Assembly (NCBI RefSeq): GCF_034008315.1
Contig: NZ_CP125377.1
Span: 4,710,501 to 4,774,500, forward strand
Origin: Pseudomonas sp. P8_241
GTDB lineage: Bacteria; Pseudomonadota; Gammaproteobacteria; Pseudomonadales; Pseudomonadaceae
Direction of reading: 5' to 3'
Length of the DNA: 64,000 bases
Both the position numbers and the translations under genes were made by a program. The notes under the pieces were generated by a model, which saw nothing but the letters and a program-made list of their open reading frames with translations, did no database searches and was not told where the DNA came from. Shown in pieces: positions 9,312 to 27,286 of this stretch. Each line of letters opens with the position of its first letter. Position 1 is the stretch's first letter.

Positions 9312-10373
9312 ATGGATACCGAATCAGAGAAACAAGGGATATTGGCTCGCAACAATGTCTTCTGGTGGCGTCAGGCCACCTTGGAAAAACGCTTGAGCCA
9401 TGTGCTCGGTTTCGCGCTGGATGACTACAGCATCTCCACCTCGGACCTGGCCTCCAATGCCTCGTTCGTCAACCATGTACACCACCATCGCCTGACCCAT
9501 CGACAAACGGGCGCCTCGCTGGATGTCGTAGAAAAATCGATTCGCAAATTGTTTGGCATTTCCAGTCTTGAATCGCGCTTCCATCGCGAAGGCAATGTGC
9601 TGGCCAACAGTATCCACTTCCGACACCCTCAATGCCTGGGCGTTATCGAAACCCCTTGGGAAAGCCTGGTCTTCACGCGTTTTATTCGGGGAAAAGCGCC
9701 TCGCATGGGCAAGATCGCGACGCAGCTTGGCCTGGGCATCGCAGAAATAGAAGATCTGACCAACTTGCACCTGCAAACCGGCAGCTGGTTACAACGCTAC
9801 CGTTTTTGGGAAATGGATTTTTTCCGTCCGTGGTACTTGCTGCGTTGGCGTTTCAATTTTGTGCGCTACCTGCCCTCTCTTAATGAGCTACCTAGCGAAG
9901 ATGCACGCTTTCAGGGGCTTCATGAGCGGCTATCACGGTTGGAGCCCGCGTTAAAACTCGCAAAAAACCGTGCCAATAATAGCCAGCGCTGTTTTTGCCA
10001 TATGGATTATTTGGCCAAGAATTTCTTTTCTTCGCCTGAAGGCTTTCAGATGATCGATTGGAGTGAGGTGAAAGTAGGCCGAATCGGGTTTGATGGGGGC
10101 GCGTACCTGAGTGCGATTTTCCGCCAGGAAGACATGGCACGCTTCACAAGAATCCGCATGTACTTTTTACGGTCCTATCTTGCAGCGCTGGACGAGCGCT
10201 TCGATGAGCAGAGTGCATTGCACAACATGGATTACTTTTTCCTGCAAAACTCCCTCTGGCATTTCCTTCGTCCCAAAACCATTGCCGACTATCAGCAGCG
10301 CGGCAAACTGGATCTGTTGCATCAGAAATACGAGTACTTGTTGGCCCAGGGTGCTCTATTAGGTGCGACATGA
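9312..10373 (+). CDS. APH/choline-kinase-fold phosphotransferase
   Basis: A 353-residue protein with the aminoglycoside/choline kinase fold. The catalytic loop is FCHMDYLAKNFF (the HxDxxxxN pattern) near residue 230, and the metal-binding segment MIDWSEVKVGRIGFD follows about 15 residues later. An N-terminal lobe with a lysine strand (VVEKSIRKL) precedes them. The start chosen is the ATG at 9312 with GGAG (9305-9308) before it; the frame also continues upstream to 9219 without family-like sequence. Members of this fold phosphorylate small hydroxyl compounds, including sugars and lipid precursors. Lying between kpsF and kpsC, it may phosphorylate a precursor or the anchor of the polysaccharide. 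The substrate is unknown and antibiotic resistance is not implied. Confidence 0.75.
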   Translation: MDTESEKQGILARNNVFWWRQATLEKRLSHVLGFALDDYSISTSDLASNASFVNHVHHHRLTHRQTGASLDVVEKSIRKLFGISSLESRFHREGNVLANSIHFRHPQCLGVIETPWESLVFTRFIRGKAPRMGKIATQLGLGIAEIEDLTNLHLQTGSWLQRYRFWEMDFFRPWYLLRWRFNFVRYLPSLNELPSEDARFQGLHERLSRLEPALKLAKNRANNSQRCFCHMDYLAKNFFSSPEGFQMIDWSEVKVGRIGFDGGAYLSAIFRQEDMARFTRIRMYFLRSYLAALDERFDEQSALHNMDYFFLQNSLWHFLRPKTIADYQQRGKLDLLHQKYEYLLAQGALLGAT

Positions 10374-10383
10374 CATGAGGGTG

Positions 10384-10408
10384 TCTTCGCTGGCAAGCCA
10401 GCACCTAC
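10384..10408. repeat. Single REP-like element
   Basis: A half palindrome of the GTAGGAGCTGGCTTGCCAGCGA type, read on the minus strand and with one changed base in the tail. It directly follows the kinase-like gene. Other copies lie at 18301, 29230, 29383, 39471, 45981 and 57302. Confidence 0.7.
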
Positions 10409-10665
10409 GAAAAGCGAGAGGTTGTCAATCTGGCTGTTAGCCGCAGAGCGCACCGCTCATCGGAGTGTTTACGCCGGCAAGCGCGCTGGGACTATGCATT
10501 CACAAAGGAAGTGAAAAAACTGTAGGAAAACTCCTATTTTTATCAGTGGCTACCTGCCATTTGTATTATCATCTGCGCCAAATTCTACCGAGCATTTCCG
10601 TCAGGTTCGCATTGATCGCGCCTGGCTGGATACGTGCGCCTGTTTATGGATAACCGCTGTTTTTT
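10409..10665. other. Leader region of the kpsC operon
   Basis: There is no gene here. It must hold the promoter of the kpsC operon. A short inverted repeat TAGGA-AAAC-TCCTA followed by TTTTT lies near 10522-10541. No JUMPstart/ops element of the kind that precedes enterobacterial capsule operons was found on the plus strand. Confidence 0.4.
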
Positions 10666-12693
10666 ATGGACAATGTCGCTCCATCGCGTCGCTCTTTGTT
10701 GATTCTGTCCAAAGGTGCGCAACAGATCTCCACCCTTCCCGCGTTGCTGCCTGAGTATCGGCTGCTGTGTGGATCGGTGCGCGATATTGGCCAGGCCGAT
10801 GAAGTTCTTGCCTGGGGTCGCAAGCCTAGCGCCTTGCGTGCGGAGGCTGCCGGCGTTGAGGCCGGGTTGCCGTTGCTCACGGTGGAAGACGGTTTTTTGC
10901 GCTCAGTGGGCCTGGGAGCCGATGAGCCGCCGTTGTCGCTGGTCGTTGACCCCCTTGGCATTTATTACGATGCCAGCAGTCCTTCTCGCCTCGAACAGTT
11001 GATCCCGGTTCCGCTCACCGAGGCTCAGAACCTGCGTGCCCGTGCCCTGCAAGCCAGTTGGTGCGAGGAGCGGGTGTCCAAATACAACGGCGCCCGCATC
11101 AAGGCTTTCGACTTGCCGCAGCCCTGCGTGCTGGTGGCGGATCAGACACGCGGTGATGCATCGCTGCAGGGTGCCAGCGCTGCCGACTTTGAGCGCATGC
11201 TCGACGCGGCGCTCGCCCGCCACCCGCAAAGCACCGTGGTTGTGAAGGTTCATCCCGATGTGGTGGCAGGGCGCAAGCAAGGCCACTTCGACCTGGTGGC
11301 GCTGCGCAAACACCCTCGTGTGAGGGTGATTGCCGAGGATGTGCATCCGGCGGAGTTGTTGTCCGGCGTGCAGGCCGTGTACGTGATGACCTCGCAACTG
11401 GGTTTCGATGCGTTGTTGTGGGGCGTGACGGTCTACACCTTCGGCATGCCGTTCTATGCCGGCTGGGGCTTGACTGTCGATGCCCTGCCCGCCCCCGAAC
11501 GGCGCCAGCGCGTAAGCCTTGAACAATTGCTGCACGCGGCGCTGGTGGAATACCCGCGCTATGTCGACCCGGAGACAGGGGCGCCCTGTGAGCCCGAAAC
11601 CGTTCTGAAGTGGCTGGGCCTGCAACGACGGATGCGCAGCCGGCTGCCTCAGGACCTGCAAATGGTTGGCTTCAGCAAGTGGAAGCAACCGTTGGTGCTG
11701 GATTTTTTCAATGGTTCAACGATTCGTTTCCTCGGTCGTTTTTCCCGTCGCCGTATCGACCCGATCATCACTTGGGGTTGCCAGCACGACGTGCCATTGA
11801 CCAGGAAAATCGACAACCACCTCGGCCGCGTCGAAGACGGTTTTCTGCGTTCCGTCGGCCTGGGCGCGAAGAAAACCCGGCCGTTGTCCTGGGTCTTCGA
11901 TGACCTGGGCATCTATTACGACGCGACCCGGCCTTCGCGTCTGGAACACCTTTTGCAGAATGAACCGTGCCCGCCCGGTCTGTTGCAGCGGGCAGCGGCG
12001 TTGCGTGAGGCAATCTGCACGGCCGGCGTGACCAAGTACAACCTGCCGGGCTCGACGTGGAAACGTCCGGCCGGTGTCGAGCGGGTGATTCTGGTGCCGG
12101 GCCAGGTGGAATCGGACGCTTCGATCCGTTATGGGGCGCACCGGATCCGCCGCAACCTTGATTTGCTCAAGGCGGTGCGCGAGCGCCATCCGATGGCGTG
12201 GCTGTTGTACAAGCCGCACCCTGAAGTACTGGCCGGCACCCGCGAGGCCGGTGAACACGAAGAACGCACCAGCGATTGGTGCAACCAGGTGGTGGGCGAT
12301 GTGCCTTTCCACGAATTGCTGTCCGAGGTCGACGAGGTGCATGTACTGACCTCGCAATCGGGCTTCGAGGCTTTGTTGCGCGGGGTTCCGGTGACCACCT
12401 ACGGCCAGCCGTTCTATGCCGGCTGGGGGCTGACCCGGGATTGCGACTTGAGTGCCGATGTCCAGGCGCGCCGCAGTCGGCGCCTGAGCCTGGATGAACT
12501 GGTGGCCGGGACCCTGATTCGCTACCCGACCTACGTAAGCCGAATCACACGAAAATTCACCACCCCCGAACGCACGCTAATCGAGATTCAGAACTGGGAT
12601 GAAGTACCTACGCAAGGAAGAACGCCAACATGGCGAGAGATGATTCAGCGTTTGCTCCCTACCGCTTTGAGAACACTGCCAGGGAAGTCGTAG
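10666..12693 (+). CDS. kpsC: KpsC, two-domain beta-Kdo transferase
   Basis: In group 2 capsules KpsC extends the poly-beta-Kdo linker on the lipid (lyso-phosphatidylglycerol) from CMP-Kdo at the inner face of the cytoplasmic membrane. The 675 residues are two tandem copies of the same glycosyltransferase fold, about 1-325 and 330-675, as expected for KpsC. Each copy has the signature VEDGFLRSVGLG (residues 73-84 and 389-400), an IYYDA segment just after, an HP motif (KVHPD near 194-198; KPHPE in the second copy) and PFYAGWG (262-268 and its counterpart). The end overlaps the start of kpsS. The GC content is normal for Pseudomonas, unlike the sugar-transferase genes to the left, so the linker/anchor genes have a different history from the repeat-unit genes. 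Confidence 0.94.
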   Translation: MDNVAPSRRSLLILSKGAQQISTLPALLPEYRLLCGSVRDIGQADEVLAWGRKPSALRAEAAGVEAGLPLLTVEDGFLRSVGLGADEPPLSLVVDPLGIYYDASSPSRLEQLIPVPLTEAQNLRARALQASWCEERVSKYNGARIKAFDLPQPCVLVADQTRGDASLQGASAADFERMLDAALARHPQSTVVVKVHPDVVAGRKQGHFDLVALRKHPRVRVIAEDVHPAELLSGVQAVYVMTSQLGFDALLWGVTVYTFGMPFYAGWGLTVDALPAPERRQRVSLEQLLHAALVEYPRYVDPETGAPCEPETVLKWLGLQRRMRSRLPQDLQMVGFSKWKQPLVLDFFNGSTIRFLGRFSRRRIDPIITWGCQHDVPLTRKIDNHLGRVEDGFLRSVGLGAKKTRPLSWVFDDLGIYYDATRPSRLEHLLQNEPCPPGLLQRAAALREAICTAGVTKYNLPGSTWKRPAGVERVILVPGQVESDASIRYGAHRIRRNLDLLKAVRERHPMAWLLYKPHPEVLAGTREAGEHEERTSDWCNQVVGDVPFHELLSEVDEVHVLTSQSGFEALLRGVPVTTYGQPFYAGWGLTRDCDLSADVQARRSRRLSLDELVAGTLIRYPTYVSRITRKFTTPERTLIEIQNWDEVPTQGRTPTWREMIQRLLPTALRTLPGKS

Positions 12694-13952
12694 TGCCGGT
12701 AGAGCGTTCCAGGCGTGTGGTGTCGGTGAAACCACGCAACTCGTTCCTGTTCCTGCAGGGCGTCAGTTCGCCGTTTTTCTCGCGTCTGGTGCAAGCACTG
12801 CGGACCGAGGGGCAATTGGTCAAATCCGTCAATTTCAATATGGGCGACCTCCTGTACGGCAGCGGCGCGCGCGTGTTTTATTCGGCGCGGCCCGAGCAGT
12901 TGATGAACTTCTACAGCGATTGCTTCAAGTCTGACCACATCACCGACGTGGTGCTGTTCGGCGATTGCCGTCCGGTGCATCAACCGGCGGTGGAGCTGGC
13001 CAAGTCCCTGGGTATTCGCGTGCACGTGTTCGAGGAAGGCTACTTCCGCCCGTACTGGATCACCCTTGAGCGCAACGGGGTGAACAATCACTCGCTGCTG
13101 CCCCGGGATCCGGAGTGGTATCGGGAGGTCGGCAAGTACATTCCGCGTTACCACAACGGCAACTCGTTCCGCCTGTCCTTCGCTTCACGGGCCTTTCATG
13201 ACGTGATGTACCACGTCGGTGGCGCGTTGAACAAAGCCGTGTTTCCCCATTACAAGACTCACGCCCCGTTCAACGCGGCCGTGGAATATGCGGGTTACAT
13301 TCGCCAGGGGCTTCGCCTGGTCAGTGCCAAGGGCCGCGATTCCGAGGTGATCAGTGAGGTGGCGCGCAATCGCCACCGCACCTTCCTGTTGCCCCTGCAG
13401 CTGGACAGCGATGCGCAGATCCGCGATCACTCACCGTTCAAACACATGAAGGATGTGCTCAAGCATGTGATGGGCTCGTTCGCCCGGCATGCCGGCAGCG
13501 ACGCGCGACTGGTGGTCAAGAACCATCCGTTGACGCCGGGGATCATCAATTACCACCGCATCACGCGACGCATTGCCCACAAGCTCGGCATCGCCGACCG
13601 TGTGGACTTCCTGGAAAGCGGGCACATGCCGACGCTGTTGTCCCATGTGGCCGGCGTGGTCACGGTCAACAGCACCGTGGGCGGTTCGTCGCTGATGCAC
13701 AGCGTACCGACCATTGCTCTGAGCGATCCGATCTACAACCTCAAGGGGCTGACGCACCAGAGTGGCCTCGACGAGTTCTGGAACTCCCCGGAGCCACCCG
13801 ACTCCACGCTGTTCCAACGCTTTCGCAGCACAGTCATTCACACCACGCAAGTCAACGGCGGCTTCTATACCCGCTGTGGCATCGACATGGCGGTGAACAA
13901 CTCCCTGGAAGTGTTGATGGCCAAGACCTCGAAGATTGAACAATACCTATGA
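12630..13952 (+). CDS. kpsS: KpsS, Kdo transferase starting the capsule linker
   Basis: KpsS adds the first beta-Kdo to the capsule lipid, after which KpsC extends the linker. The product is 440 residues from the ATG at 12630, which overlaps kpsC by 64 bases. The family starts at FLFLQGVSSPFFSRL near residue 38. Other motifs are FEEGYFRPYW near 137, KNHPLTPGIINY near 297 and VNSTVGGSSLMHSVPTIALS near 350, the typical Capsule_synth C-terminal site. A GTG at 12693 directly behind the kpsC stop, with AGGGA 7 bases before it, is an attractive alternative start and would give 419 residues with tighter coupling. Both starts keep the whole domain. The stop overlaps the next start by 4 bases (ATGA). 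Confidence 0.92.
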   Translation: MARDDSAFAPYRFENTAREVVVPVERSRRVVSVKPRNSFLFLQGVSSPFFSRLVQALRTEGQLVKSVNFNMGDLLYGSGARVFYSARPEQLMNFYSDCFKSDHITDVVLFGDCRPVHQPAVELAKSLGIRVHVFEEGYFRPYWITLERNGVNNHSLLPRDPEWYREVGKYIPRYHNGNSFRLSFASRAFHDVMYHVGGALNKAVFPHYKTHAPFNAAVEYAGYIRQGLRLVSAKGRDSEVISEVARNRHRTFLLPLQLDSDAQIRDHSPFKHMKDVLKHVMGSFARHAGSDARLVVKNHPLTPGIINYHRITRRIAHKLGIADRVDFLESGHMPTLLSHVAGVVTVNSTVGGSSLMHSVPTIALSDPIYNLKGLTHQSGLDEFWNSPEPPDSTLFQRFRSTVIHTTQVNGGFYTRCGIDMAVNNSLEVLMAKTSKIEQYL

Positions 13953-14725
13953 CGCTGCAAAAGTCTCCACGCTGCATTCTCATCACCGGCGCCACGGGTG
14001 GAATTGGTGGCGCCCTGGCGCCCGCCTACGCGGCACCGGGGGTGACTCTGATCCTGCAGGGCCGACGTCTGGACCGCCTGGAAGAAATGGCCGCGCAATG
14101 CCGCGCCGCCGGCGCCCGGGTGTTGCTGAAAGCGCTGGATGTCCAGGACCTGGATGCCCTGCGCAGCTGGATCAGTGAGATCAGCGTCAGCGAGCAACCG
14201 GACCTGATCATCGTAGGTGCCGGGGTCAATACTTCGACCGGTGAAAATGGCGAAGGCGAAGTCTGGGAGCTGTCCCGGGCGCTGATCGAAATCAACGTAC
14301 TGGCAGCGCTCGCCACGGTGCAGGCTGCCCTGCCGGCCATGCGCGCACGCAAGTCGGGGCAGATCGCCCTGTTCAGTTCGCTGGCCGGGTGGCGCGGCTT
14401 GCCGGCCACCCCGAGCTACAGCGCCAGCAAGGCGGCGATCAAGGCTTATGGTGAGGCCATGCGCGACCTGGTGGCGGTGGATGGGGTAAAGATCAACGTG
14501 ATCATGCCCGGCTATGTCGAATCGAAAATGTGCTTTGAAATGCCCGGTCCGAAGCCTTTGCTCTGGACGCCGGACAAGGCTGCCCGACGAATCCGGCGCG
14601 GCCTGGCGGCGAACCAGGCGCGCATCAGTTTTCCCTTCCCGCTGAACCTTGGATGCTGGGCTCTGGGGGTCATTCCGCCACGGCTGTCTTCGATCATTTT
14701 GCGGTGGCTGGATTACGGTGCCTGA
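13949..14725 (+). CDS. Short-chain dehydrogenase/reductase, RkpH-like
   Basis: A classical NAD(P)-dependent SDR of 258 residues. The cofactor motif TGATGGIG is at 13-20, the catalytic serine in LFSSLAGWRG near 143-144, and Tyr157 and Lys161 in PSYSASKAAIKAYGEAM. The C-terminus has hydrophobic patches (near 215-255) that may dock on the membrane or bind a lipid chain. In the rhizobial rkp-1 region RkpH is an SDR next to the PKS-like RkpA and the oxoamine synthase RkpG. By analogy with 3-ketosphinganine reductase, I infer that this enzyme reduces the keto group left by the oxoamine synthase encoded at 18374. It is coupled to kpsS by an ATGA overlap and its stop lies inside the next gene. Confidence 0.85.
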   Translation: MTLQKSPRCILITGATGGIGGALAPAYAAPGVTLILQGRRLDRLEEMAAQCRAAGARVLLKALDVQDLDALRSWISEISVSEQPDLIIVGAGVNTSTGENGEGEVWELSRALIEINVLAALATVQAALPAMRARKSGQIALFSSLAGWRGLPATPSYSASKAAIKAYGEAMRDLVAVDGVKINVIMPGYVESKMCFEMPGPKPLLWTPDKAARRIRRGLAANQARISFPFPLNLGCWALGVIPPRLSSIILRWLDYGA

Positions 14726-16226
14726 TTTGTTGAGTAGTGCTTTTGTTCTGGTGGTTGTGCTTGGTTTTTGCCTTTCCTGCGCTTTCGAACTGTTGCTGAT
14801 ACCTCGTCCCGGATGGCGTCGCCCATTAGGCAGCTGGCTGCTTCATGCAGGCGCCTGGGTTTTCGCGGTGGGCTTGCTGTACCTGATCACCGGGCGCGCC
14901 TGGTTCAGTGCGGTGAACGTACTGGCCCTGTGGCTATTGATCGTGCTGGTCAGCAATGCCAAATACCATTCGCTGCGCGAGCCTTTCGTGTGCGCCGACT
15001 TCGAGTATTTCAGCGATGCCGTGCGCTTTCCGCGCCTGTATTTACCCTTCTTCGGCATCGGCAAGGCCATAGGCCTGGCGCTGCTGTTTGTCGTTTATCT
15101 GGCCTGCGGTTTGTATTTCGAACCTGTCGGCGCCGATGCCCGCGTCGTTGCGTCGAGCGCCTTGTTGTGTGGATTGGCCTTGCTGTGGCTCGGCAGCCGA
15201 AAGCCTTTGCAAGCGACCTTTGACGCCAGCCTTGACCTGGTTCGCTGGGGTCTGGCCGCGAGTTTGTGGACCTATTTTTTCGCCGCCCGGCGCCCTGTGT
15301 CGCTGGCGCAATTGAACTCGCCATTCGCAGAGGATCAGGCACGACCCATGATCGATGTCACCCTCGCGGATCTGGTGTCGGTCCAGAGCGAGTCGTTTTT
15401 CGATGCCCGCCGTTTGTGGCCCGGCATTCGGCCGCAGGTCCTGGGCCACTTCGACACCTTGCGCAGTGAAGCGCGGGCACAAGGCCGATTGCAGGTCGCG
15501 GCCTGGGGTGCAAACACTGTGCGCACTGAGTTCGCCTTTCTCACCGGCATCAAGGTGGACCAGCTCGGCGTCCACCGCTTCAACCCCTATCGCCATCTGG
15601 CGCGTAAAGGCGTCGCCAGCATCGCCCTGGCACTGAAACGCCAGGGTTATCGCACGGTGTGCGTGCATCCCTATGCAGGCAGTTTTTATGGGCGCGACAA
15701 GGTGTTGCCGGCGTTGGGTTTCGATGAGTTCATCGATGTGCGCAGCTTCACTGAACAACAGAAGGCCGGCCCGTTTATCGGCGACTGCGCCGTGGCCGAC
15801 AAGATCACCGAGCTGCTCGATGCCCCTGGCCGTACGCAGCCGCTGTTCATCCATGCCATCACCATGGAAAACCACGGCCCATTGCACCTTGAGACGGTCG
15901 AAGCGGCCGACCTCACGCAATGGTTCGACCGTCCCCTGCCGGACGGCCTGCGCGACCTCGCCCCTTACGTGCGCCACTTGAGCAACGCCGATCGCATGCT
16001 TGGCCAATTGCGCGGGCACTTTCTGGCGCGCGGTACGCCCACCGGGCTGTGTTTTTTTGGCGACCATGTGCCCATCCTGCCCGACGTTTATGGCGTCCTC
16101 GGCGCGCCGGATGGCGACACCGAGTACTTCATCTGGTCCAACACCGCGCCGACCGGCAGTCCGCCCGCAGACCTGGGGGTCGAGCAACTGGCCAAGGCGT
16201 TTGTCGATCAGTTGGCACCCGCGTAA
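14718..16226 (+). CDS. Membrane sulfatase-fold phosphoglycerol transferase (LtaS-like)
   Basis: The product has about five N-terminal membrane segments (roughly residues 1-190), then an extracytoplasmic alkaline-phosphatase/sulfatase domain as in lipoteichoic acid synthase and OpgB. The domain has the metal Glu in SVQSESFF near 225, the nucleophile Thr near 267 in GANTVRTEF, MENHGPL near 395 and FFGDHVPIL near 440. LtaS enzymes move phosphoglycerol from phosphatidylglycerol to an acceptor. The start is taken as GTG at 14718, overlapping the SDR gene by 8 bases; the open frame reaches back to 14649, but those residues are out-of-frame SDR sequence. The rkp-1 region of rhizobia also has a membrane protein (RkpI) at this place. 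I infer that it modifies the capsule lipid or polymer with a phospho-alcohol at the periplasmic face. Confidence 0.85.
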   Translation: MPDLLSSAFVLVVVLGFCLSCAFELLLIPRPGWRRPLGSWLLHAGAWVFAVGLLYLITGRAWFSAVNVLALWLLIVLVSNAKYHSLREPFVCADFEYFSDAVRFPRLYLPFFGIGKAIGLALLFVVYLACGLYFEPVGADARVVASSALLCGLALLWLGSRKPLQATFDASLDLVRWGLAASLWTYFFAARRPVSLAQLNSPFAEDQARPMIDVTLADLVSVQSESFFDARRLWPGIRPQVLGHFDTLRSEARAQGRLQVAAWGANTVRTEFAFLTGIKVDQLGVHRFNPYRHLARKGVASIALALKRQGYRTVCVHPYAGSFYGRDKVLPALGFDEFIDVRSFTEQQKAGPFIGDCAVADKITELLDAPGRTQPLFIHAITMENHGPLHLETVEAADLTQWFDRPLPDGLRDLAPYVRHLSNADRMLGQLRGHFLARGTPTGLCFFGDHVPILPDVYGVLGAPDGDTEYFIWSNTAPTGSPPADLGVEQLAKAFVDQLAPA

Positions 16227-16840
16227 TGACTCAGACCCGTAGTGAACCTTTGCAGATCGCCCTCGCCTCCAGCAACTCGGTGCGCGACCCGGCGATTGCA
16301 AAATGGATCACCTCAGGCCGCGGTTCACTGGCATTCATGCTCGGAGACGAGGATTGTCGCCATCGCCTGTTGGCGGACGGGATCAATTGGGACCGGGTGC
16401 TGGTTGCCTATCGAGGGGATGCCGCTATTGGCTATGCCGCCTTCAAGCACCTTCGGCGCGGACCGTTTTCCCCTGGCATGCAGCCATTCGTGCGTGAGTT
16501 CGGCCGGCTCGGTGGCGCACTGCGCTATGGCATGTTTGCTGTCAGCGAATGGCGCGAGTGGCACTTCGGATTTTATCTGTATGGCTTGCGCGTTCGCAAA
16601 ATCGCCCGCCGCCAGGGTGTTGCCAGTGCCTTGTTGCACGCCGTGCTTATTCAGGCGCGTGACACTGATCATGAAAAAATAGAGCTGGAAGTGCAGGCGA
16701 ACAATCTGCCGGCCCGAGCGTTTTACGCCCACCACGGCTTTTCGCCAAGACGCACCTTCGCCCTGCGCTGGCTCAAACATCTGATGCCGATCCCCGCCAT
16801 CATCAATCTGCGTCGTACGGTATCGCCAAGTCATGAGTAG
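16226..16840 (+). CDS. GNAT-family N-acyltransferase
   Basis: A cytoplasmic acetyl/acyl-CoA-dependent N-acyltransferase of 204 residues. The acyl-CoA-binding motif is near residues 126-140 (RKIARRQGVASALLHAV, where R-R-x-G-V-A is the A motif), and the C-terminal NNLPARAFYAHHGF segment near 160 is the usual B motif. The ATG overlaps the preceding stop by one base, and the last 8 bases overlap the next gene, so it is part of the operon. GNAT enzymes usually acylate an amine. In this context the amine could be the amino group of the amino-alcohol lipid predicted from the oxoamine synthase and SDR, or an amino sugar. That assignment is inference. Confidence 0.85.
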   Translation: MTQTRSEPLQIALASSNSVRDPAIAKWITSGRGSLAFMLGDEDCRHRLLADGINWDRVLVAYRGDAAIGYAAFKHLRRGPFSPGMQPFVREFGRLGGALRYGMFAVSEWREWHFGFYLYGLRVRKIARRQGVASALLHAVLIQARDTDHEKIELEVQANNLPARAFYAHHGFSPRRTFALRWLKHLMPIPAIINLRRTVSPSHE

Positions 16841-18275: not shown

Positions 18276-18300
18276 AGGTCGATCTTTGGACCGCCTTCTC

Positions 18301-18329
18301 TGTAGGAGCCGGCTTGCCGGCGAAGGCGG
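18301..18329. repeat. Single REP-like element
   Basis: A GTAGGAGCCGGCTTGCCGGC palindrome between the converging ends of the KpsC-like and oxoamine synthase genes. It may serve as a 3' transcript boundary. Confidence 0.75.
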
Positions 18330-18373
18330 TCTTGAATACTGCACAGCCTCCAGGCTCACTGCGCTCGCCGCGC

Positions 18374-19723: not shown

Positions 19724-19732
19724 AGTCAGTGG

Positions 19733-22700
19733 TCAATTGATCAAACGGGAAAGTTGGGTATCGGGACTGCTCGCGCCAGAACCGACTTGCGTCAATTCTA
19801 CTTCGGACAGCTCGACGCCATGGCGCGCCAGAGAGTCAGCGGTCCGCGCCTGCAAACTGTCCTCGGCATCCTGGCTGCCACGCAGCAACTCAAGAATACG
19901 TATGGTCAGCTTGGCAATGCTCGAGGTTTCGCTCAGCTCCATGACCGGCAGGCGAATACCGAAACGTTCCTCGACCGCGACCACCAGCTCCACGCTCATC
20001 AGCGAATCGAGCCCCAGCTCCTGAAGCGGGCGACTGCTGTCGAGCTTGCTGGCAGGGATGCGCAGGATCTCGCTGATTTCCTGCTTGAGCATTTCAGCAA
20101 ACAGCTCGGTGAGCTCCTCGTCGTTCATTTCCAGAAGCAGGCGCTGGATATCATCGACATTGCTCTCCTCCTCCTGCTCACCACTGTGCAGGCGCGCCAG
20201 CTCAATGAACTTCGGCGATCCGGCTGCCGGCAGGAATCGCGACAGCGCTTTCCAGTCGAGCTCCAGCACACCGAGCCCGGAGCGTTTTTGCAGCAGCAGG
20301 TTTTCCAGGGTGTCGAGGGCCGCTTGCGACTGCAGGGCCGCACCGCCCATGCGACTTTGCAGGGCATCCTTGATGTCCTGGTTTCGAGCGAGGAAACCGG
20401 CATCGTCAATGGCGCCCCACAGCACCGCAGTGGCCGGCAAGCCTTGCAACAGGCGGTGACGGGCCAGCGCTTCGAGCCAGTGGTTGGCCGCTACATAGTT
20501 GGCCTGCCCCGGGTTGCCGAACAGAGTGGTCGCCGAAGAAAACAGCACGAACAAGTCCAGCGGCAGATGCGCGGTCAGTTCATGCAGCAATTGCGCGCCC
20601 TTGGCTTTGGGTTCGAGCACCCGTTGCAACTGGGCTTGCGTAAGGTTGCGAATCAAACCGTCATCGAACACCGTGGCCGCATGCACAACGCCCCGCAGCG
20701 GTGCCGTTGAAGCTTCAAGGCTCGACAGCACGCTGCGCAATTGCGCGATATCGGTAATGTCGCAAGCCAGCGCCTGAACCGCGATGCCCTGCTCACGCCA
20801 GGCCGCCAACGCCGGTTGCGCCTCCTCGGTCGCCGCGCCCCGACGACCCAGCAACGCCAGGTGACGAGCCCCCTTGTCCACCAGCCATTGCGCGGTACGC
20901 AGGCCAAAGCCACTGAGCCCGCCGGTGACCAGATAGGTGCCGTCGGCCGACAGTTGCAAGGTTTGCGCCTGCGCCACCGGAGCGCTGAACACCTGCTGGA
21001 TTGGCGTGCGGTAGGTCACGACGATCTTGCCGATCTGTCGCGCCTGCTGCATGTAGCGGAACGACTCGACGACATCGTTGGCGTCGAACTCACGATACGG
21101 CAGCGGGCTGAGGATGCCATCGCGGAACAACTGCATCATGTCGCCAAACAGGCGACGGGTCAGTGCCGGGCGCTCGCTCATCAACTGGTCGGCATCGATG
21201 CCGAAGTAGCTGATGTTGTTGCGGAACGGCCGCAGACCGATTTTGGTGTTCTGGTAGAAATCGCGCTTGCCCAGTTCAAGGAATCGCCCGAACGGCTTGA
21301 GCACTTGCAGGTTGCGGTTGATCGCCTCGCCTGCCAACGAATTGAGCACCACGTCGACGCCACGGCCAGCGGTAATGGCGAGGATCTCGTCGGCAAACGC
21401 CAGTGATCGCGAATCGAACACATGCTCGACGCCGAGCAAGCGCAGGAAATCGCGTTTTTCGTCGCTGCCGGCGGTGGCGTAGATCTCGGCCCCGCACCAT
21501 TTGGCGATCTGGATCGCGGCGATCCCGACGCCACCGGCAGCGCCGTGAATCAGGATTTTCTCGCCCGGTTCCAGGCGCGCCAGGTAATGCAGCGCGTAGT
21601 ACACGGTGAAGAAGGTGCTAGGGATGGTCGCGGCCGCTTCGAAGGACATGCCCTCAGGGATCCGCGCCACCGCGTTGGCATTGGTCACCAGGCGGTTGGC
21701 GAAGCTCGACGGGCCGAAGCCTACCACCCGGTCACCCGGCTGGAAGTCACCTTCTACCTGCAGGCCCTTGCCACGCACGACACCGGCAAACTCGAAGCCC
21801 AGGGTCGGGCCGGAAAAACCGTTTTCGATGGCTTCATCCGACAGCAAACCCAACGCATACATGACGTCGCGGAAGTTGAGGCCGGTGGCCTGGACTTCGA
21901 TGTCCAGCTCATCGCCCGCCGGCACCAACGCGTCGTGGGCTTCCCAACGCAGGTTGCGCAACTGGCCCGGCAGTTCGAAGCCAAGGCTGACCTGGGTCGG
22001 GGCCTGTTGACCGGCTGTGCGGTCCAGTTGATCCGGGCGCACCCGCAAACGGGCAACGTATCGATCACCCTCCGCGCTGATCGCCAGTTCGGTTTCTTCA
22101 TCGGCATTGAGCAGCGCCGGCAGCAACGCTTCGACACCCGCCCCTTCAGCCAGGTCCAACAGACGAACGCGGCAGCCCACGGCCTCGTTGGCCAGCGTGC
22201 GGCCAAACCCCCACAACGCCGCATCGGCCAGGGTCGACACATTACCGGGCACTTGCGACGACACAGGCAGCAGGTGCACCGCCGCCCCGCGCGTCAACAA
22301 CCAGCAGTCAGGGCTCACGCCCGCCTGTTCGCAAGCCTGGGTCAATCCTGCGGCGAGCATGCAACGCTCAGCCTGGCCATCCAGCCCTTGGGTGCCGAAT
22401 AAACCACTGAGCAGTAACAGGTGCCGCGGTGCTGGCCCGGCGCTCAATTGCAGGGCCATGTCCTGTGCCGAAGCCGGCGCCAGCCAGTCAACGCTTTGCC
22501 CCTGATCGCGCAGGGCCAGGGTCAGTTGTTGTGCGAAAGCGTTTTCCGCGCCTTGCTGATCAGCCACCAGCAACCAGTGTTGAACGGGCAATGGTTGCGG
22601 ATCGAATGCCACCACGCCTTCGGTCGTGCCCATCAGCACATAACTGCCGCTGGACATGGCTGGCATAAACTCCAGTACATCGTCGACGCTCAAGCCGTGA

Positions 22701-25700
22701 CGACGCAGTTCCTGCTGCCAGAATCCCGGACGCTGTTGCACCGACAGGCTCCGTTGCCCTTCGCCGGTCAGCCACCATGAAGGTTGCGCGCCGAACACGA
22801 AGTCCGCCCAGCGCGCCGGGTGCTGTGCCAGCAGCATCAACTGCCCACCGGCCGACATGCGCACAGCCGCGTGGCCCAGGCTCTTGCTGATCGATTCCAG
22901 CGGCGCCAGGTCCGCGGCGACCAAGACCAGGTCAAAGCCGCTGGCAGGCACGGTCGGCAGCTGTTCGGCATCCGCCAGGCTGAGCAATTGCAGGTCCGGG
23001 AACTCGCCTTGCAGCAGGCTTGCCGGGTCCAGGTCGTCAGCGCTGTATTGGTAATCGACACGGTCGAAGTCCAGCTGTGCGCACAGTTGCGCAGCGAAGG
23101 GTGCACCACCGAAACCGAGCTCGAGAATTCGCAAGCGTTGCCCCGCCGGCAGCACGGCCAGACGTTGCTCGATGTGCTGTCTGATGCCGTCCAGCAAGGC
23201 GTGATAACCGCTGGCACCCAGGACCTGACGGGACAATTGGGCTGGCGAGGTTTCGCGCGGCAGCAACGTTTCAATCTGCTGGGCACCGCTGAGCAGGTCC
23301 AACAGGTGGATACCGATTCGCCCCACCGAGTGAATAATCTGGAAATGCTCGGGATAGCTGCGGAACAGTTCCTGCCAGATGTCCTGGGCGCTCGGACGCT
23401 CACCCTGATCGGCCACCTGCCAGGTGCCACCGCTGGCCATCAGGCTACCGTCGTCCACTGCCTGTTCCAGCAGGTGATCCAGATACCCCGAGTACCCCTG
23501 CGCCTGGGTTTGCCATGTCGCCCGCTGGGCAAGGCTCAGCTGACCACCCAGGGACTCGATGGCTTCCAGCACAAAGCTGCCACACAGGCTGTCCAGCAGC
23601 GGTTCGACTTCCTGGCTGTAGCGCTGCTGTGTCGGCTCATCAGCCACCGATGCCAGGCTCTGAACCAAGGTGTGATGCAAGGCCGGGGGTTTGAACGGCA
23701 ACCCACGGGCGGCATTGGGATAAGGTTTGGCGATGCCGGCGAAATCCGCCAGCTTCAGGTCGCCACTGCGATCCTTGTGCAATTTGACCGCACGGAAACG
23801 CGCGTCCTTGATGCACACCACGGCGCGCCCTTGGGCGTCGTACAGGGTGAAGTCGGCCAACAGGGAATGTTCCGACCGGCGCACCAGGCGCACTTTCGCC
23901 AGGCAGGGTGGCAGGCTTGCGGCGGCAAAATTGATCCGACCCAGTTTTACCGGGATAAACGCCAGGCCATTACGCGCCTTGGGGTCTGCGCTCAGCAACT
24001 GCGTGATCAGCTGGAACGCACTGTCCAGCAACGCCGGATGCAGGTGCAAGGTTGCCAGTTCGGACGCAATTACCTGGGGAGCGCTGAGCTGCGCCAGCAC
24101 CTGGTCACCGTCGATCCAGCCGGCTTCGATGGCCTGATAGGCCGGGCCGTAGTTAAGGCCAACCGCACAGGTCAGTTGCAAATGTTGCGCTCGATTGAAA
24201 TCCGGGGCGCGAGTGGGCAGTGCCGGTGCCTGTTCGTTCAGCAGGACACCACGCGCCTCGCCCGGCAAACGGGCAACCACGTGTCGCGCCCACGGTTCTT
24301 CCTGGGCCGTGCTGCGCGACACAATGGAGACGGTGCCATCGCTGCTGTCGATCTGCACACGCACGCGCTTGCTCGACTCGGCATGCAGCACCAACGGATT
24401 GTGGATTTCCAGTTCTTCGATGTCGACGTACTGACCCGGCTGGTAGCACTGCGCCGCCGCCAGGACCAGTTCAGTGAAACCGGCCCCCGGGAACAGCACC
24501 GCATCGCCGACCTTGTGGTCATCCAGCGACGCAAACAGTTGTGTATCGAGACGGTTTTCCCAGGTCAGCTCATGCCCCGGAACGGCATGACCGAGCAGCG
24601 GATGCTGCCGCTCAAGGTAAAGCGCCCGGCTCGACTCCGGCGTGTCGCCATGCCAGTGCCGCTCGCGCTGCCATGCGTAGTTGGGCAAGCGCACGAACTG
24701 CCCGGTGCTCGGGAACAGGCACGACAGATCAGTCTCGACGCCACTGATCAGCACCTTGGCCACCGCACGGGTGACCCGCTGTGGGGCGTCGTCATTGCGC
24801 ATCAGTGTGGTAATCGCCACGCCCTCTTGACCCTGTGCGGCCAAGGCATCGCTGACATAGCTGCGCAGGACCGGATGCGGACCGACCTCGACAAAGACGT
24901 TGTAGCCCTGTTCGCACAGGGTTTCGCTGGCGGACTGGAACAACACCGGGAAACGGATGTTCTGCCACCAGTATTCGGCGTCCAGACGTTTTCCATCCAG
25001 CAAGCCACCGGTGACTGTGGAATACAAAGGGATCTGGCCGCTGCGTGGAGCGATGTCGCGCAACGCCTCGACCACCTGTTCGCCGATCATGTTCATCGCC
25101 GGCGAGTGGAAGGCGTAGTCCAGGGCAAGGCGACGAACAAATACCTGACGTTCGCTCAGCACCTGCTCAAGACGCTCCAGGCCACTGACAGAACCGGCCA
25201 CGGTCGCGCCCTTGAAGCTGTTTTCGCCAGCCAGGACCACATCGTCAAGGCCCAACTCCTGGAGCAGATTCGCGGTGTCGCTGCCCGACAAGCCAACGGC
25301 GGACATTTGTCCATAACCGGCCGTGAGCCCCTGCAAGCGACTGCGGTGGTAGATCACCCGGGTCGCGTCAACCAGGGTCAAGGCACCGCACGCCCAGGCG
25401 GCGGCGACTTCGCCAACGCTATGGCCCATCACGACCTGCGGCACCACTCCCTGGCTGGCCAGCATGCGGGTGACACCGACTTGCAGCGCGAACAGGGCCG
25501 GCTGGGCTATTTCGGTCAAATGATACCGGTCCTGCCCGTTTTCACCCGCCAGTTCGGCAATCAGCGAGTAGCCGGACAATGGCTGGAACACCGCATCGAT
25601 TTCAGCGACGGCGGCATGGAACACCGGGTCCGCGAGCAACCCTTTGCCCATCCCTTGCCATTGCGACCCATTGCCGGAGAAAACAAACACCGGCCCCTTG

Positions 25701-27286
25701 GCCTGATCCAGCGCCCGACCGCTTTCCACCACGGAGCTCAGGGCCGAGACGGCCGGGTCCAGGGCGAAATCCAGCAGCGCCTGGGCGCTGTGCTGGAGGT
25801 CGCTGTCGACCACCACCACACGTTGCGGATGCAGGTCACGACGCATCATCACCTGATACGCAACGTCATACAGGCTGGAAGCCGGGTTGTCGTTGAGGTG
25901 ATGCGCGATGCTTTGCGCCATCGCCGCCAGCCCACCGCCGTCTTTGGCCGTGACCATCAATGGCACCGCCGCATGCGTGGTCACGACCGCGCACGGCGCA
26001 GCGTCCGGTGTGTGGCTTTGCAGGATGACGTGGGCGTTGGCGCCGCCAAACCCGAACGAATTGACCCCGACCACCAGCGTGCCATTGGGCTTGAGCGCAT
26101 GGTTGCGGGTGGCCACATTGAGGTTCAGGTCGGCGAAAGGAATGCGCGGATTGAGGTTCTTGATACCGATAGTGGCCGGCACCTGGCGTTCGGTAACGCA
26201 GTACAGCGCTTTCATCAAGCCGGCCACCCCGGAGGCAGCCTCCAGGTGACCGATGTTGCTTTTGACCGAGCCGATCAGCAACGGCTTGTCAGCCCCGCGA
26301 ACCTGGCCCAACGCCAGGCCGATGGCCCGGCTTTCAATGGGATCGCCCACCGGCGTGCCTGTGCCGTGGGCTTCCAGGTAATCGATGTCGGCCGGCGAAA
26401 TGCCAGCACTGGCGTAGGCCTGAGTCATCAACGCAGCCTGGGCATCGGCACTTGGCACGGTAAGCCCGGACTTGCGTCCATCGGTATTGACCGCGCTGCC
26501 CGCCACGACCGCCAGGATCTGGTTGCCGTCCGCTACCGCCTTGTCGTAATCCTTGAGATAGAACAGCCCGGCGCCTTCGGATCGCACATAACCGTCACCG
26601 GCTTCGTCGAAGACGTTACAGCGCCCTTTGCGCGACAGCATCGATGCCTTCGAGAAGATCAGAAAGCCGAACGGGTGCAGGTGCAGGCTGATACCGCCGG
26701 CCAGTGCCTGGTCGATATCTCCGCTTTGTATGGCCTGGCAAGCCTGGTGGAACGCGACCAATGACGATGAACAGGCGGTATCGACCGCCATGCTCGGACC
26801 GTGCAGGTCATAAAAGTACGACAGACGATTGGCCGCGATGCTGAACGTGTTACCCGTGGCTGTCGAGGCATCGACCAGTGACAGGTCATGGGCCAGGCGA
26901 TAGGCATAGTCGGTGCTGGCAATGCCCAGGTACACGCCGCAATTGCTGCCGCGCACACTCGATGGCTTGACCCCGGCGTTCTCGAACACTTCCCAGCCCA
27001 GCTCCAGTAACAGACGCTGTTGGGGGTCCATGATCGCCGCTTCACGGGGGGAAATACTGAAGAAGCCTGCATCGAAGGTGGAAATATCACCCAACGTGCC
27101 AGCCGCCAGCGTGTAGGTCGTACCGGGGTTGGCCTTGTCGGGATGAAAAAACGCTTCATGGGACCAGCGGGACGGGTCGACCTGGGTGATGAAATCATGC
27201 CCTTCCAGCAGGTTCTGCCAGAAAGTTGCGGAAGTGGAGCCAGGAAAACGGAACGAAGCCCCAATAATTGCAACTTTCTTACGCAT
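19733..27286 (-). CDS. Single-module highly reducing type I polyketide synthase, RkpA-like
   Basis: A 2517-residue multidomain synthase. The KS spans 1-430 (Cys172, His307, His347). The AT spans about 530-850, with Ser623 in GHSVG; the YAFHS motif at 724-728 favours malonyl-CoA. The DH spans about 895-1170 (His924, Asp1088). A methyltransferase-like region spans about 1300-1550, with a damaged SAM motif (ELGFGGA at 1389-1395). The ER spans about 1770-2090 (NADPH loop HGAAGGVG at 1914-1921), and the KR about 2110-2300 (Ser2251, Tyr2264). The ACP spans about 2395-2470, with phosphopantetheine Ser2428. There is no thioesterase. The domain set suits iterative synthesis of a fully saturated acyl chain, as in rhizobial RkpA and in glycolipid-type PKSs. 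The ribosome-binding site GGTGGAG precedes the ATG. Release is likely by the oxoamine synthase encoded next. Confidence 0.95.
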   Translation of the reverse strand: MRKKVAIIGASFRFPGSTSATFWQNLLEGHDFITQVDPSRWSHEAFFHPDKANPGTTYTLAAGTLGDISTFDAGFFSISPREAAIMDPQQRLLLELGWEVFENAGVKPSSVRGSNCGVYLGIASTDYAYRLAHDLSLVDASTATGNTFSIAANRLSYFYDLHGPSMAVDTACSSSLVAFHQACQAIQSGDIDQALAGGISLHLHPFGFLIFSKASMLSRKGRCNVFDEAGDGYVRSEGAGLFYLKDYDKAVADGNQILAVVAGSAVNTDGRKSGLTVPSADAQAALMTQAYASAGISPADIDYLEAHGTGTPVGDPIESRAIGLALGQVRGADKPLLIGSVKSNIGHLEAASGVAGLMKALYCVTERQVPATIGIKNLNPRIPFADLNLNVATRNHALKPNGTLVVGVNSFGFGGANAHVILQSHTPDAAPCAVVTTHAAVPLMVTAKDGGGLAAMAQSIAHHLNDNPASSLYDVAYQVMMRRDLHPQRVVVVDSDLQHSAQALLDFALDPAVSALSSVVESGRALDQAKGPVFVFSGNGSQWQGMGKGLLADPVFHAAVAEIDAVFQPLSGYSLIAELAGENGQDRYHLTEIAQPALFALQVGVTRMLASQGVVPQVVMGHSVGEVAAAWACGALTLVDATRVIYHRSRLQGLTAGYGQMSAVGLSGSDTANLLQELGLDDVVLAGENSFKGATVAGSVSGLERLEQVLSERQVFVRRLALDYAFHSPAMNMIGEQVVEALRDIAPRSGQIPLYSTVTGGLLDGKRLDAEYWWQNIRFPVLFQSASETLCEQGYNVFVEVGPHPVLRSYVSDALAAQGQEGVAITTLMRNDDAPQRVTRAVAKVLISGVETDLSCLFPSTGQFVRLPNYAWQRERHWHGDTPESSRALYLERQHPLLGHAVPGHELTWENRLDTQLFASLDDHKVGDAVLFPGAGFTELVLAAAQCYQPGQYVDIEELEIHNPLVLHAESSKRVRVQIDSSDGTVSIVSRSTAQEEPWARHVVARLPGEARGVLLNEQAPALPTRAPDFNRAQHLQLTCAVGLNYGPAYQAIEAGWIDGDQVLAQLSAPQVIASELATLHLHPALLDSAFQLITQLLSADPKARNGLAFIPVKLGRINFAAASLPPCLAKVRLVRRSEHSLLADFTLYDAQGRAVVCIKDARFRAVKLHKDRSGDLKLADFAGIAKPYPNAARGLPFKPPALHHTLVQSLASVADEPTQQRYSQEVEPLLDSLCGSFVLEAIESLGGQLSLAQRATWQTQAQGYSGYLDHLLEQAVDDGSLMASGGTWQVADQGERPSAQDIWQELFRSYPEHFQIIHSVGRIGIHLLDLLSGAQQIETLLPRETSPAQLSRQVLGASGYHALLDGIRQHIEQRLAVLPAGQRLRILELGFGGAPFAAQLCAQLDFDRVDYQYSADDLDPASLLQGEFPDLQLLSLADAEQLPTVPASGFDLVLVAADLAPLESISKSLGHAAVRMSAGGQLMLLAQHPARWADFVFGAQPSWWLTGEGQRSLSVQQRPGFWQQELRRHGLSVDDVLEFMPAMSSGSYVLMGTTEGVVAFDPQPLPVQHWLLVADQQGAENAFAQQLTLALRDQGQSVDWLAPASAQDMALQLSAGPAPRHLLLLSGLFGTQGLDGQAERCMLAAGLTQACEQAGVSPDCWLLTRGAAVHLLPVSSQVPGNVSTLADAALWGFGRTLANEAVGCRVRLLDLAEGAGVEALLPALLNADEETELAISAEGDRYVARLRVRPDQLDRTAGQQAPTQVSLGFELPGQLRNLRWEAHDALVPAGDELDIEVQATGLNFRDVMYALGLLSDEAIENGFSGPTLGFEFAGVVRGKGLQVEGDFQPGDRVVGFGPSSFANRLVTNANAVARIPEGMSFEAAATIPSTFFTVYYALHYLARLEPGEKILIHGAAGGVGIAAIQIAKWCGAEIYATAGSDEKRDFLRLLGVEHVFDSRSLAFADEILAITAGRGVDVVLNSLAGEAINRNLQVLKPFGRFLELGKRDFYQNTKIGLRPFRNNISYFGIDADQLMSERPALTRRLFGDMMQLFRDGILSPLPYREFDANDVVESFRYMQQARQIGKIVVTYRTPIQQVFSAPVAQAQTLQLSADGTYLVTGGLSGFGLRTAQWLVDKGARHLALLGRRGAATEEAQPALAAWREQGIAVQALACDITDIAQLRSVLSSLEASTAPLRGVVHAATVFDDGLIRNLTQAQLQRVLEPKAKGAQLLHELTAHLPLDLFVLFSSATTLFGNPGQANYVAANHWLEALARHRLLQGLPATAVLWGAIDDAGFLARNQDIKDALQSRMGGAALQSQAALDTLENLLLQKRSGLGVLELDWKALSRFLPAAGSPKFIELARLHSGEQEEESNVDDIQRLLLEMNDEELTELFAEMLKQEISEILRIPASKLDSSRPLQELGLDSLMSVELVVAVEERFGIRLPVMELSETSSIAKLTIRILELLRGSQDAEDSLQARTADSLARHGVELSEVELTQVGSGASSPDTQLSRLIN

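Follow-up and report, generated by a model that had tools for sequence, protein, structure and literature searches.

The capsule locus

The DNA analysed here, called the window, is a stretch of 64,000 nucleotides (positions 4710501-4774500) from the one-contig genome of Pseudomonas sp. P8_241. Its nearest named protein matches come from Pseudomonas. The subject of this study is its stretch at 9312-27286, in which a type I polyketide synthase (PKS) and an alpha-oxoamine synthase face an operon of kpsC- and kpsS-type capsule genes. In window coordinates the genes are:

9312..10373, plus strand, APH-fold kinase (PF01636), whose ATG at 9312 opens the stretch
10666..12693, plus strand, KpsC with two Kdo (3-deoxy-D-manno-oct-2-ulosonic acid) transferase domains (PF05159); solved KpsC domains align to residues 36-353 and 367-644
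12630..13952, plus strand, KpsS, first Kdo transferase, start codon uncertain; Sinorhizobium meliloti RkpJ is its match (35%)
13949..14725, plus strand, short-chain dehydrogenase/reductase (SDR), RkpH/SgaC-like, proposed 3-ketosphinganine reductase; 28.5% identity to RkpH and 78.5% to locus L190
14718..16226, plus strand, LtaS/GacH-like membrane enzyme matching RkpI (PF00884 and fold), proposed sphingoid-lipid phosphoglycerol transferase
16226..16840, plus strand, GNAT acyltransferase (Pfam and fold matches)
16833..18275, plus strand, KpsC2, a second KpsC-like gene with the N-terminal transferase domain only
18374..19723, minus strand, alpha-oxoamine synthase of RkpG/SgaB type, proposed serine-specific 3-ketosphinganine synthase releasing the PKS product
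19733..27286, minus strand, single-module iterative type I PKS of RkpA/SgaA type (KS-AT-DH-ER-KR-ACP)

From kpsC to kpsC2, successive genes overlap end to start (the LtaS-like and GNAT genes begin at the corrected starts GTG 14718 and ATG 16226). On the opposite strand, the synthase gene starts 9 bases beyond the PKS stop codon. Genes for an ABC-2 permease (KpsM), its ATPase (KpsT), KpsE and OPX proteins lie upstream, mostly beyond the window edge, and the group 2-like set of KpsS, KpsC, ABC transporter, KpsE and OPX proteins is complete. KpsS, a two-domain KpsC, KpsM/KpsT/KpsE and OPX are shared with the E. coli group 2 capsule, which has a lyso-phosphatidylglycerol anchor. The window differs in having its own PKS-sphingoid module and in the NCBIfam scores of KpsS (288.7 against an equivalog cut-off of 600) and KpsM, both below equivalog cut-offs, and of KpsE, below the KpsE-family cut-off.

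All genes named in an earlier sequence-only reading of this DNA were found in their places by open reading frames (ORFs) and Pfam/NCBIfam matches. That reading did not mention the APH-fold kinase and did not tie the LtaS-like gene to RkpI. The kinase gene also lies upstream of kpsC in L043, L184, L189 and L199 (L numbers denote compared loci, G numbers genomes), and a PDB sequence search gave it no convincing solved relative.

The polyketide synthase and the oxoamine synthase

The PKS is a single ORF of 2517 aa, with no thioesterase domain among its Pfam matches at E 0.001. The motifs of its KS, AT, DH, ER, KR and ACP domains are intact and, across 65 aligned rows (the window PKS, RkpA and 63 related ORFs), mostly conserved, while the AT motif, YAFH, leaves the extender undecided. 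With one fully reducing module, the enzyme must, judging from its family, act iteratively to build a long saturated chain. In a KS-AT tree of 58 rows it falls with RkpA in a clade of 36 rows (support 100), all of them synthase-linked; four synthase-linked PKSs (L044, L045, L155, L157) lie outside this clade, and the label needs four changes on the tree.

Together with RkpG and other capsule-locus synthases, the window's synthase forms one clade in a careful tree (24 of 46 rows; 93/99, 93% of bootstrap trees) and in a quick tree (37 of 71 rows; support 99), with serine palmitoyltransferase (SPT), BioF and other relatives outside. All trees were built from hand-picked rows, and the synthase trees contain long branches (L034 and L036, which meet in the 71-row quick tree; L035, L034, L028 and L027 in the 46-row careful tree). 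The sequence-only reading had made unrelatedness to RkpA and RkpG one of its refuting tests; the window PKS groups with the former and the synthase with the latter. An identity as BioF was rejected, because the synthase scores below the cut-off of every NCBIfam model listed and BioF sits elsewhere in the trees; the genome's own BioF, above cut-off, is at C1:6070852. Membership in the bacterial SPT family proper was likewise rejected, as the SPT rows form a separate clade in both the 71- and 46-row trees.

Near the capsule-type clade stand synthases fused to a PKS, which come from cyanobacteria, planctomycetes and a desulfobulbacean. In L044, L045, L109, L115 and L125 (from a cyanobacterium, Streptomyces, planctomycetes and a desulfobulbacean) a related oxoamine synthase is fused into a long PKS-type ORF, and except for a KpsT-type match in L109 no recognised capsule genes were found nearby. 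These fused proteins likely make other PKS-derived amino-lipids.

Homology to rhizobial rkp-1

The S. meliloti reference was CP090106.1 (labelled pSymB, 3.7 Mb), on which rkpI is missing from the gene table and present as an open frame; the rkp names were assigned there by what we take to be the established gene order. The PKS is collinear with RkpA end to end (34.3% over 2560 columns, residues 5-2466 of 2517; blastp E 0), and the synthase matches RkpG (49.7% over 447 aa; E 4e-150). KpsS matches RkpJ (35.2% over 409 aa; E 2e-81) and the LtaS-like protein matches RkpI (27.5% over 437 aa; E 7e-34) with all four of its motifs kept. The SDR is 28.5% identical to RkpH over 263 aa, a tentative pairing in a family of many paralogues. 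Blastp also pairs KpsF, encoded nearby, with KpsF3 (38.1% over 310) and OPX with RkpU (24.0% over 362). No blastp match among the seven S. meliloti proteins was obtained for KpsC, KpsC2, the GNAT or the kinase.

By these pairings KpsS is the counterpart of RkpJ, and the LtaS-like enzyme that of RkpI. The sequence-only reading of an rkp-1-like locus holds for the PKS, synthase, LtaS-like protein and KpsS, but not for its description of RkpJ as KpsC-like, which was rejected. Gene order, whose comparison it had proposed, is not kept: the A-G-H-I-J order on one strand is replaced here by a PKS-synthase pair facing kpsC-kpsS-SDR-LtaS-GNAT-kpsC2, with different strands. Both loci have matching RkpA, RkpG, RkpI, RkpJ and a neighbouring KpsF, with RkpH as a tentative match, and the S. 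meliloti stretch has no kpsC, GNAT or kinase match. A review places the rkp-1 products in the production of a lipid carrier that serves capsule secretion and states that S. meliloti 1021 needs rkp-1 to secrete poly-Kdo (PMC4881576).

Sphinganine synthesis by a close homologue

What a homologous pair of PKS and synthase makes is known from P. fluorescens MYb115, where the PKS SgaA and the synthase SgaB produce C24, C26 and C28 sphinganines that are abolished by deletion of sgaA and of sgaB (PMC12134224, 2025). SgaB accepts serine nearly to the exclusion of alanine and glycine, and the SDR SgaC (KW062_RS19775) is the proposed ketoreductase (PMC12134224). The same strain contains species 154 Da heavier than the sphinganines, most likely phosphoglycerol sphingolipids (PMC12134224). 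By our arithmetic 154 Da is glycerol phosphate minus water, which leaves no mass for an N-acyl chain. The available text of that paper names no headgroup enzyme, and capsul, kps, rkp and polysaccharide have zero occurrences in its main text (supplements lay outside the search). It frames the Sga lipids as secondary metabolites and describes sphingolipids in cells and an effect on a nematode host (PMC12134224).

How close is the window to this system? The sgaA start primer matches exactly once each in L047, L188, L190 and L191, at PKS starts, and in L190 and L191 the PKS and the synthase end with the residues encoded by the paper's reverse primers. Those reverse primers found no exact DNA match across 196 loci; L190 and L191 are therefore close relatives, not MYb115 itself, and serve as its proxies. 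In L188, L190 and L191 the order is kpsC-kpsS-SDR-LtaS-GNAT-kpsC2-PhyH-synthase-PKS (the L190 stretch begins inside kpsC). The MYb115 locus tags (SDR RS19775, synthase RS19800, PKS RS19805) leave room for four step-of-five tags between SDR and synthase, which is the number of genes there in the proxies (LtaS, GNAT, kpsC2, PhyH). Identities of the window to L190 are 67% for the PKS, 77% for the synthase, 78.5% for the SDR, 65% for the LtaS-like protein and 68% for KpsS. PKS, synthase and SDR, in the same order in the proxies, are shared by the window and the SgaA/SgaB/SgaC pathway. The published genes were described as a secondary-metabolite cluster, and the window is without the PhyH and the kpsC2 second half of L188 and L190-L193.

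The route from PKS through oxoamine synthase and SDR to a sphingoid base, as the sequence-only reading had it, is supported by the sphinganines of SgaAB in another Pseudomonas (PMC12134224). The amino acid that it left unspecified can be narrowed by analogy with SgaB to serine, very probably. Of its "perhaps N-acylated and phosphorylated" base, the N-acyl part finds no room in the homologue's mass, and the headgroup is probably phosphoglycerol.

The LtaS-like enzyme and the GNAT

Among solved sequences the LtaS-like protein is closest to GacH, a phosphoglycerol transferase, and then to LtaP and LtaS. Its QSES, G..T..EF, NHGP and GDH motifs, which we take to supply the metal-binding and nucleophile residues, are invariant in eight rows. 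The predicted model (pLDDT, predicted local distance difference test, 84) has five long helices ahead of a catalytic domain with an alkaline-phosphatase-type fold; its best fold matches are GacH with sn-glycerol-1-phosphate, LtaP and LtaS, and MCR-1 and EptA match over the full length. LtaS, GacH, EptA and MCR-1 act on the periplasmic side or otherwise outside the cytoplasm. From kinship and model together, the protein may transfer glycerol phosphate to a sphingoid lipid.

The listed fold matches of the GNAT (best 50 of 1246) are GNAT acetyltransferases, with no bCerS in the comparison. A role in long-chain N-acylation is not supported by these matches.

The Kdo transferases

(Lyso-)phosphatidylglycerol receives its Kdo from KpsS and KpsC, and the two domains of KpsC, N and C, form different linkages (PMC7694667); the glycolipid remains on the capsule as its anchor (PMC12220298, PMC7694667). 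This phosphatidylglycerol-poly-Kdo anchor was called highly conserved among all species in 2024 (PMC11666461). In a careful tree of 41 KpsS rows, one branch (96/91; 97% of bootstrap trees) parts 29 module-linked sequences from 12 others. The tree left out L198, L216, L221, L222, L225, L226, L228 and L229 as well as the five rows of L055, L110 and L119, and kept the long rows L210 and L215. "No synthase" means none at at least 49% identity, since remote synthases occur in G032 (37%) and G067 (40%). The split could reflect a KpsS adapted to another acceptor or common descent of whole loci.

The KpsC2 of the window, like those of L183-L187, is without the C-terminal transferase domain, and the adjoining PhyH dioxygenase gene is also absent. 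Both a full kpsC2 and PhyH are present in L188-L193, L195 and L199, and in L047 the second kpsC is two ORFs. This pattern suggests that the KpsC2 C-domain and PhyH may have been lost by deletion in the window's lineage. As a separate observation, the Stappiaceae loci L110, L119 and L124 pair PKS and synthase with two genes of kpsS type; a genome-wide profile search gave no LtaS-like gene for them.

Distribution of the module

Across 298 Pseudomonas genomes, the window's included, the synthase occurs in 15, the LtaS-like protein in 16 and KpsS in 15, with all three together in 14; KpsC and a second KpsC-like match accompany all 15 synthases. The pairing of synthase and KpsS has one exception each way, both in decayed loci. 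G547 has KpsS and the LtaS-like protein and is without such a synthase (best match 34%); in its locus (L198, C16:33000-52900) the first half of a PKS, 62.8% identical to residues 1-1234, lies beside the kps genes and ends next to kpsC2. G586 combines PKS and synthase with a partial KpsC and a fragment of the LtaS-like gene, and lacks KpsS. G400 retains two halves separated by about 2 Mb: the PKS-synthase pair, next to KpsM- and KpsT-type matches, and kpsC-kpsS-SDR-LtaS-GNAT-kpsC2-PhyH.

Further afield, 36 of 398 Pseudomonadota genomes have the synthase at E 1e-60 or better, and 17 at at least 49% identity. In a 299-genome sample, a PF05159 match accompanies 11 of these 17 (it cannot be told for G308, G315, G324 and G395). 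Of the 80 named loci, the best 80 of 523, 69 include a PKS match and 57 have a gene of capsule or LtaS-like type in the retrieved flank. Since these flanks extend 10 kb from the synthase, or as far as the contig goes, absences in them mean little; the KpsE, KpsM and KpsT pairwise matches in the locus maps rest on seeds chosen from L009, L041 and L046.

The module has also been met on a plasmid. L043 (NZ_CP016850.1, plasmid pL21564-1, 99.7 kb) carries it whole with kpsC, kpsS, kpsF, kdsA and kdsB; the host is Pseudomonas sp. TMW 2.1634, from poultry meat, and the plasmid is typed mobilizable (MOBP).

Related systems

LtaS-like, PKS and synthase genes, often with SDR and GNAT, are shared with loci of Burkholderia, Paraburkholderia, Ralstonia and Cupriavidus, presumably the wcb-type clusters, a name that we apply to these Burkholderiales loci by assumption. 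They differ in having an LpxC-family gene between PKS and synthase. The wcbR of B. pseudomallei presumably encodes a PKS of this type. An LpxC-family deacetylase gene (PF03331) occurs in 11 of the 80 named loci, including L041 (13033-13959) and L042 (13049-13963). In B. pseudomallei, wcbR is a fatty-acid-synthesis component of the CPS-I capsule (PMC7858667). The available part of PMC5507470 has nothing on the lipid.

The Vi antigen of Salmonella Typhi (VexE, diacyl-HexNAc anchor) is likewise an ABC-exported capsule on a lipid other than phosphatidylglycerol (PMC12220298), but it is made without KpsS/KpsC and its lipid is a different one. The bacterial SPT pathway (SPT, bCerS, CerR) also gives a serine-based sphingoid base; there, however, the SPT belongs to another clade, and the acyl chain of the window's lipid would come from a dedicated PKS.

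A proposed sphingolipid anchor and its alternatives

We read the stretch as part of an ABC-transporter (group 2-like) capsule locus with its own sphingolipid-anchor pathway, running from the PKS through to the Kdo linker, and give this reading a probability of about 0.64. The PKS would use its built-in carrier domain to elongate and fully reduce a very long acyl chain and, there being no thioesterase, the oxoamine synthase would release the chain by condensation with serine to give 3-ketosphinganine, which the SDR would reduce to sphinganine. The LtaS-like enzyme (RkpI) would move glycerol phosphate from phosphatidylglycerol to this base, yielding a one-chain phosphoglycerol lipid that resembles lyso-phosphatidylglycerol. 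On sphinganine-phosphoglycerol KpsS would place the first Kdo, and KpsC with the one-domain KpsC2 would extend the Kdo linker, to which the polymer would be joined before export by KpsM/KpsT/KpsE/OPX. Sphinganine formation from serine by PKS and synthase is carried over from the published homologue SgaAB, for which the SDR reduction and the phosphoglycerol headgroup are proposals of the same paper (PMC12134224); we infer that the LtaS-like enzyme makes the headgroup and that the lipid is both the acceptor for KpsS and the anchor of the capsule. A long-chain sphingolipid would then probably replace the phospholipid that ties the capsule to the cell. In favour of this reading stand the SgaAB chemistry (PMC12134224) with the gene order and identities of its proxies, the rkp-1 homology and clades, the joint occurrence of synthase, LtaS-like protein and KpsS in Pseudomonas, the two separated halves of G400, the KpsS branch, the solved relatives of the LtaS-like enzyme, the action of KpsS on (lyso-)phosphatidylglycerol (PMC7694667), and the reviews of rkp-1 (PMC4881576) and wcbR (PMC7858667).

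Several points weigh against this reading. Linkage by itself makes neighbouring genes occur together, and the Fisher values are corrected neither for this nor for kinship. The KpsS split is supported at 77 when all 54 rows are used, by a quick method and before thinning. G012 and G169 have a synthase (49-53% identity) and no PF05159 match listed, if, as it appears, they belong to the sample. Among 28 genomes drawn from the 47 named loci with no LtaS-like gene in the flank, the LtaS-like profile found none genome-wide in 13, the other 15 encoding one elsewhere. With LtaS relatives in the periplasm and KpsS at the cytoplasmic face, the reading requires either a flip or a different sequence of steps, and the mixed loop charges of the LtaS-like protein (1 versus 7 in the window, varying in other rows) leave its topology undecided by charge count. 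Induction of sgaAB in MYb115 raised free sphinganines and not phosphoglycerol lipids (PMC12134224), and deletion of the wcbR-containing region reduced the capsule without abolishing it (PMC7858667). A reducing-end analysis of capsule from such an organism was not found in the literature searched.

What else might the lipid be for? The sphingolipids might be free membrane or secreted lipids, the capsule sitting on ordinary lyso-phosphatidylglycerol and the gene sets merely travelling together. The effect on a nematode host of free sphinganines and probable phosphoglycerol sphingolipids in cells (PMC12134224) would suit this, as would linkage without shared function and the synthases of G012 and G169. 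We nevertheless think it unlikely, given that synthase and KpsS go together in 14 of 298 Pseudomonas genomes with only decayed exceptions, that G400 keeps both halves far apart, that KpsS splits by module presence in the 41- and 54-row trees, and that reviews connect rkp-1 with a lipid carrier in the secretion of capsule (PMC4881576). The review's wording, a lipid carrier involved in secretion (PMC4881576), would also fit a sphingoid lipid that starts the capsule as a carrier or export tag and is removed or exchanged before the surface, and the superfamily of the LtaS-like enzyme includes hydrolases (sulfatases); but the classical KpsS/KpsC glycolipid stays as anchor (PMC12220298, PMC7694667), no removing enzyme is evident in the locus, and such a transient role seems quite improbable.

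The order of steps may also differ. The sphingoid base could be the anchor while the LtaS-like enzyme acts on the polymer after export or on another acceptor in the periplasm, KpsS taking sphinganine or a form phosphorylated by the APH-fold kinase. LtaS, GacH and EptA act outside the cytoplasm, in agreement with the fold matches, GacH decorates a polysaccharide, and a kinase gene lies upstream of kpsC. The phosphoglycerol lipids left unraised by induced SgaAB point the same way (PMC12134224). Against this, the LtaS-like gene accompanies the module across phyla and classes with different polymer genes, S. meliloti RkpI included, the extra mass on the published lipids equals phosphoglycerol (PMC12134224), and nothing in the S. 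meliloti stretch matches the kinase. We hold this variant unlikely.

The sphingolipid-anchor reading can be widened from the window to a branch of KpsS/KpsC capsules, in Pseudomonas, rhizobia, Burkholderia, Bordetella, Achromobacter, Halomonas, Nitrosomonas and others. That this branch is anchored by PKS-made very-long-chain sphinganine-phosphoglycerol, with the Sga lipids as anchors, RkpI as the headgroup enzyme and the rkp-1 carrier as a sphingolipid, we consider to have somewhat better than an even chance.

Neighbouring genes and the capsule polymer

Further genes of the capsule region precede the stretch:

2138..2977, minus strand, GalU-like nucleotidyltransferase (PF00483), sugar precursor
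4613..6118, minus strand, Stealth-family protein (Stealth_CR1-3), capsule polymer; by family presumably a sugar-phosphate transferase
6111..7124, minus strand, family 2-like glycosyltransferase (PF10111), capsule polymer
7215..8150, minus strand, KpsF-type sugar-phosphate isomerase (SIS + CBS), 38% identity to the KpsF beside S. meliloti rkpJ
8185-8982, minus strand, S1/P1-type nuclease gene between kpsF and kinase, within the capsule region

No homologue of the nuclease was found in L043 or in the fetched L183-L200 stretches, several of which stop short of that position. A protein of 1273 aa that combines GT2, TagF-like glycerophosphotransferase and TPR parts (L009 15985-19806, ending near window position 805) has a low GC content at third codon positions (0.38). 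Together with the Stealth protein, its domains suggest that the capsule polymer may be teichoic-acid-like and contain phosphate.

Implications

The sphinganine route (2025) and the capsule role of rkp-1 are already known separately. No paper joining them was found, which is weak evidence because most subscription papers and preprints were outside the search. The anchor reading can be tested in laboratory strains, and some of the mutants are already published. If true, it would contradict the stated universality of the phosphatidylglycerol anchor (PMC11666461) and would name the lipid product of rkp-1, filling in the lipid step so far missing for rhizobial capsules. The sphingolipids described from bacteria in 2025 would acquire a function, with an enzyme proposed for their phosphoglycerol headgroup, and a sphingolipid would anchor the capsule in many soil, plant-associated and host-associated bacteria.

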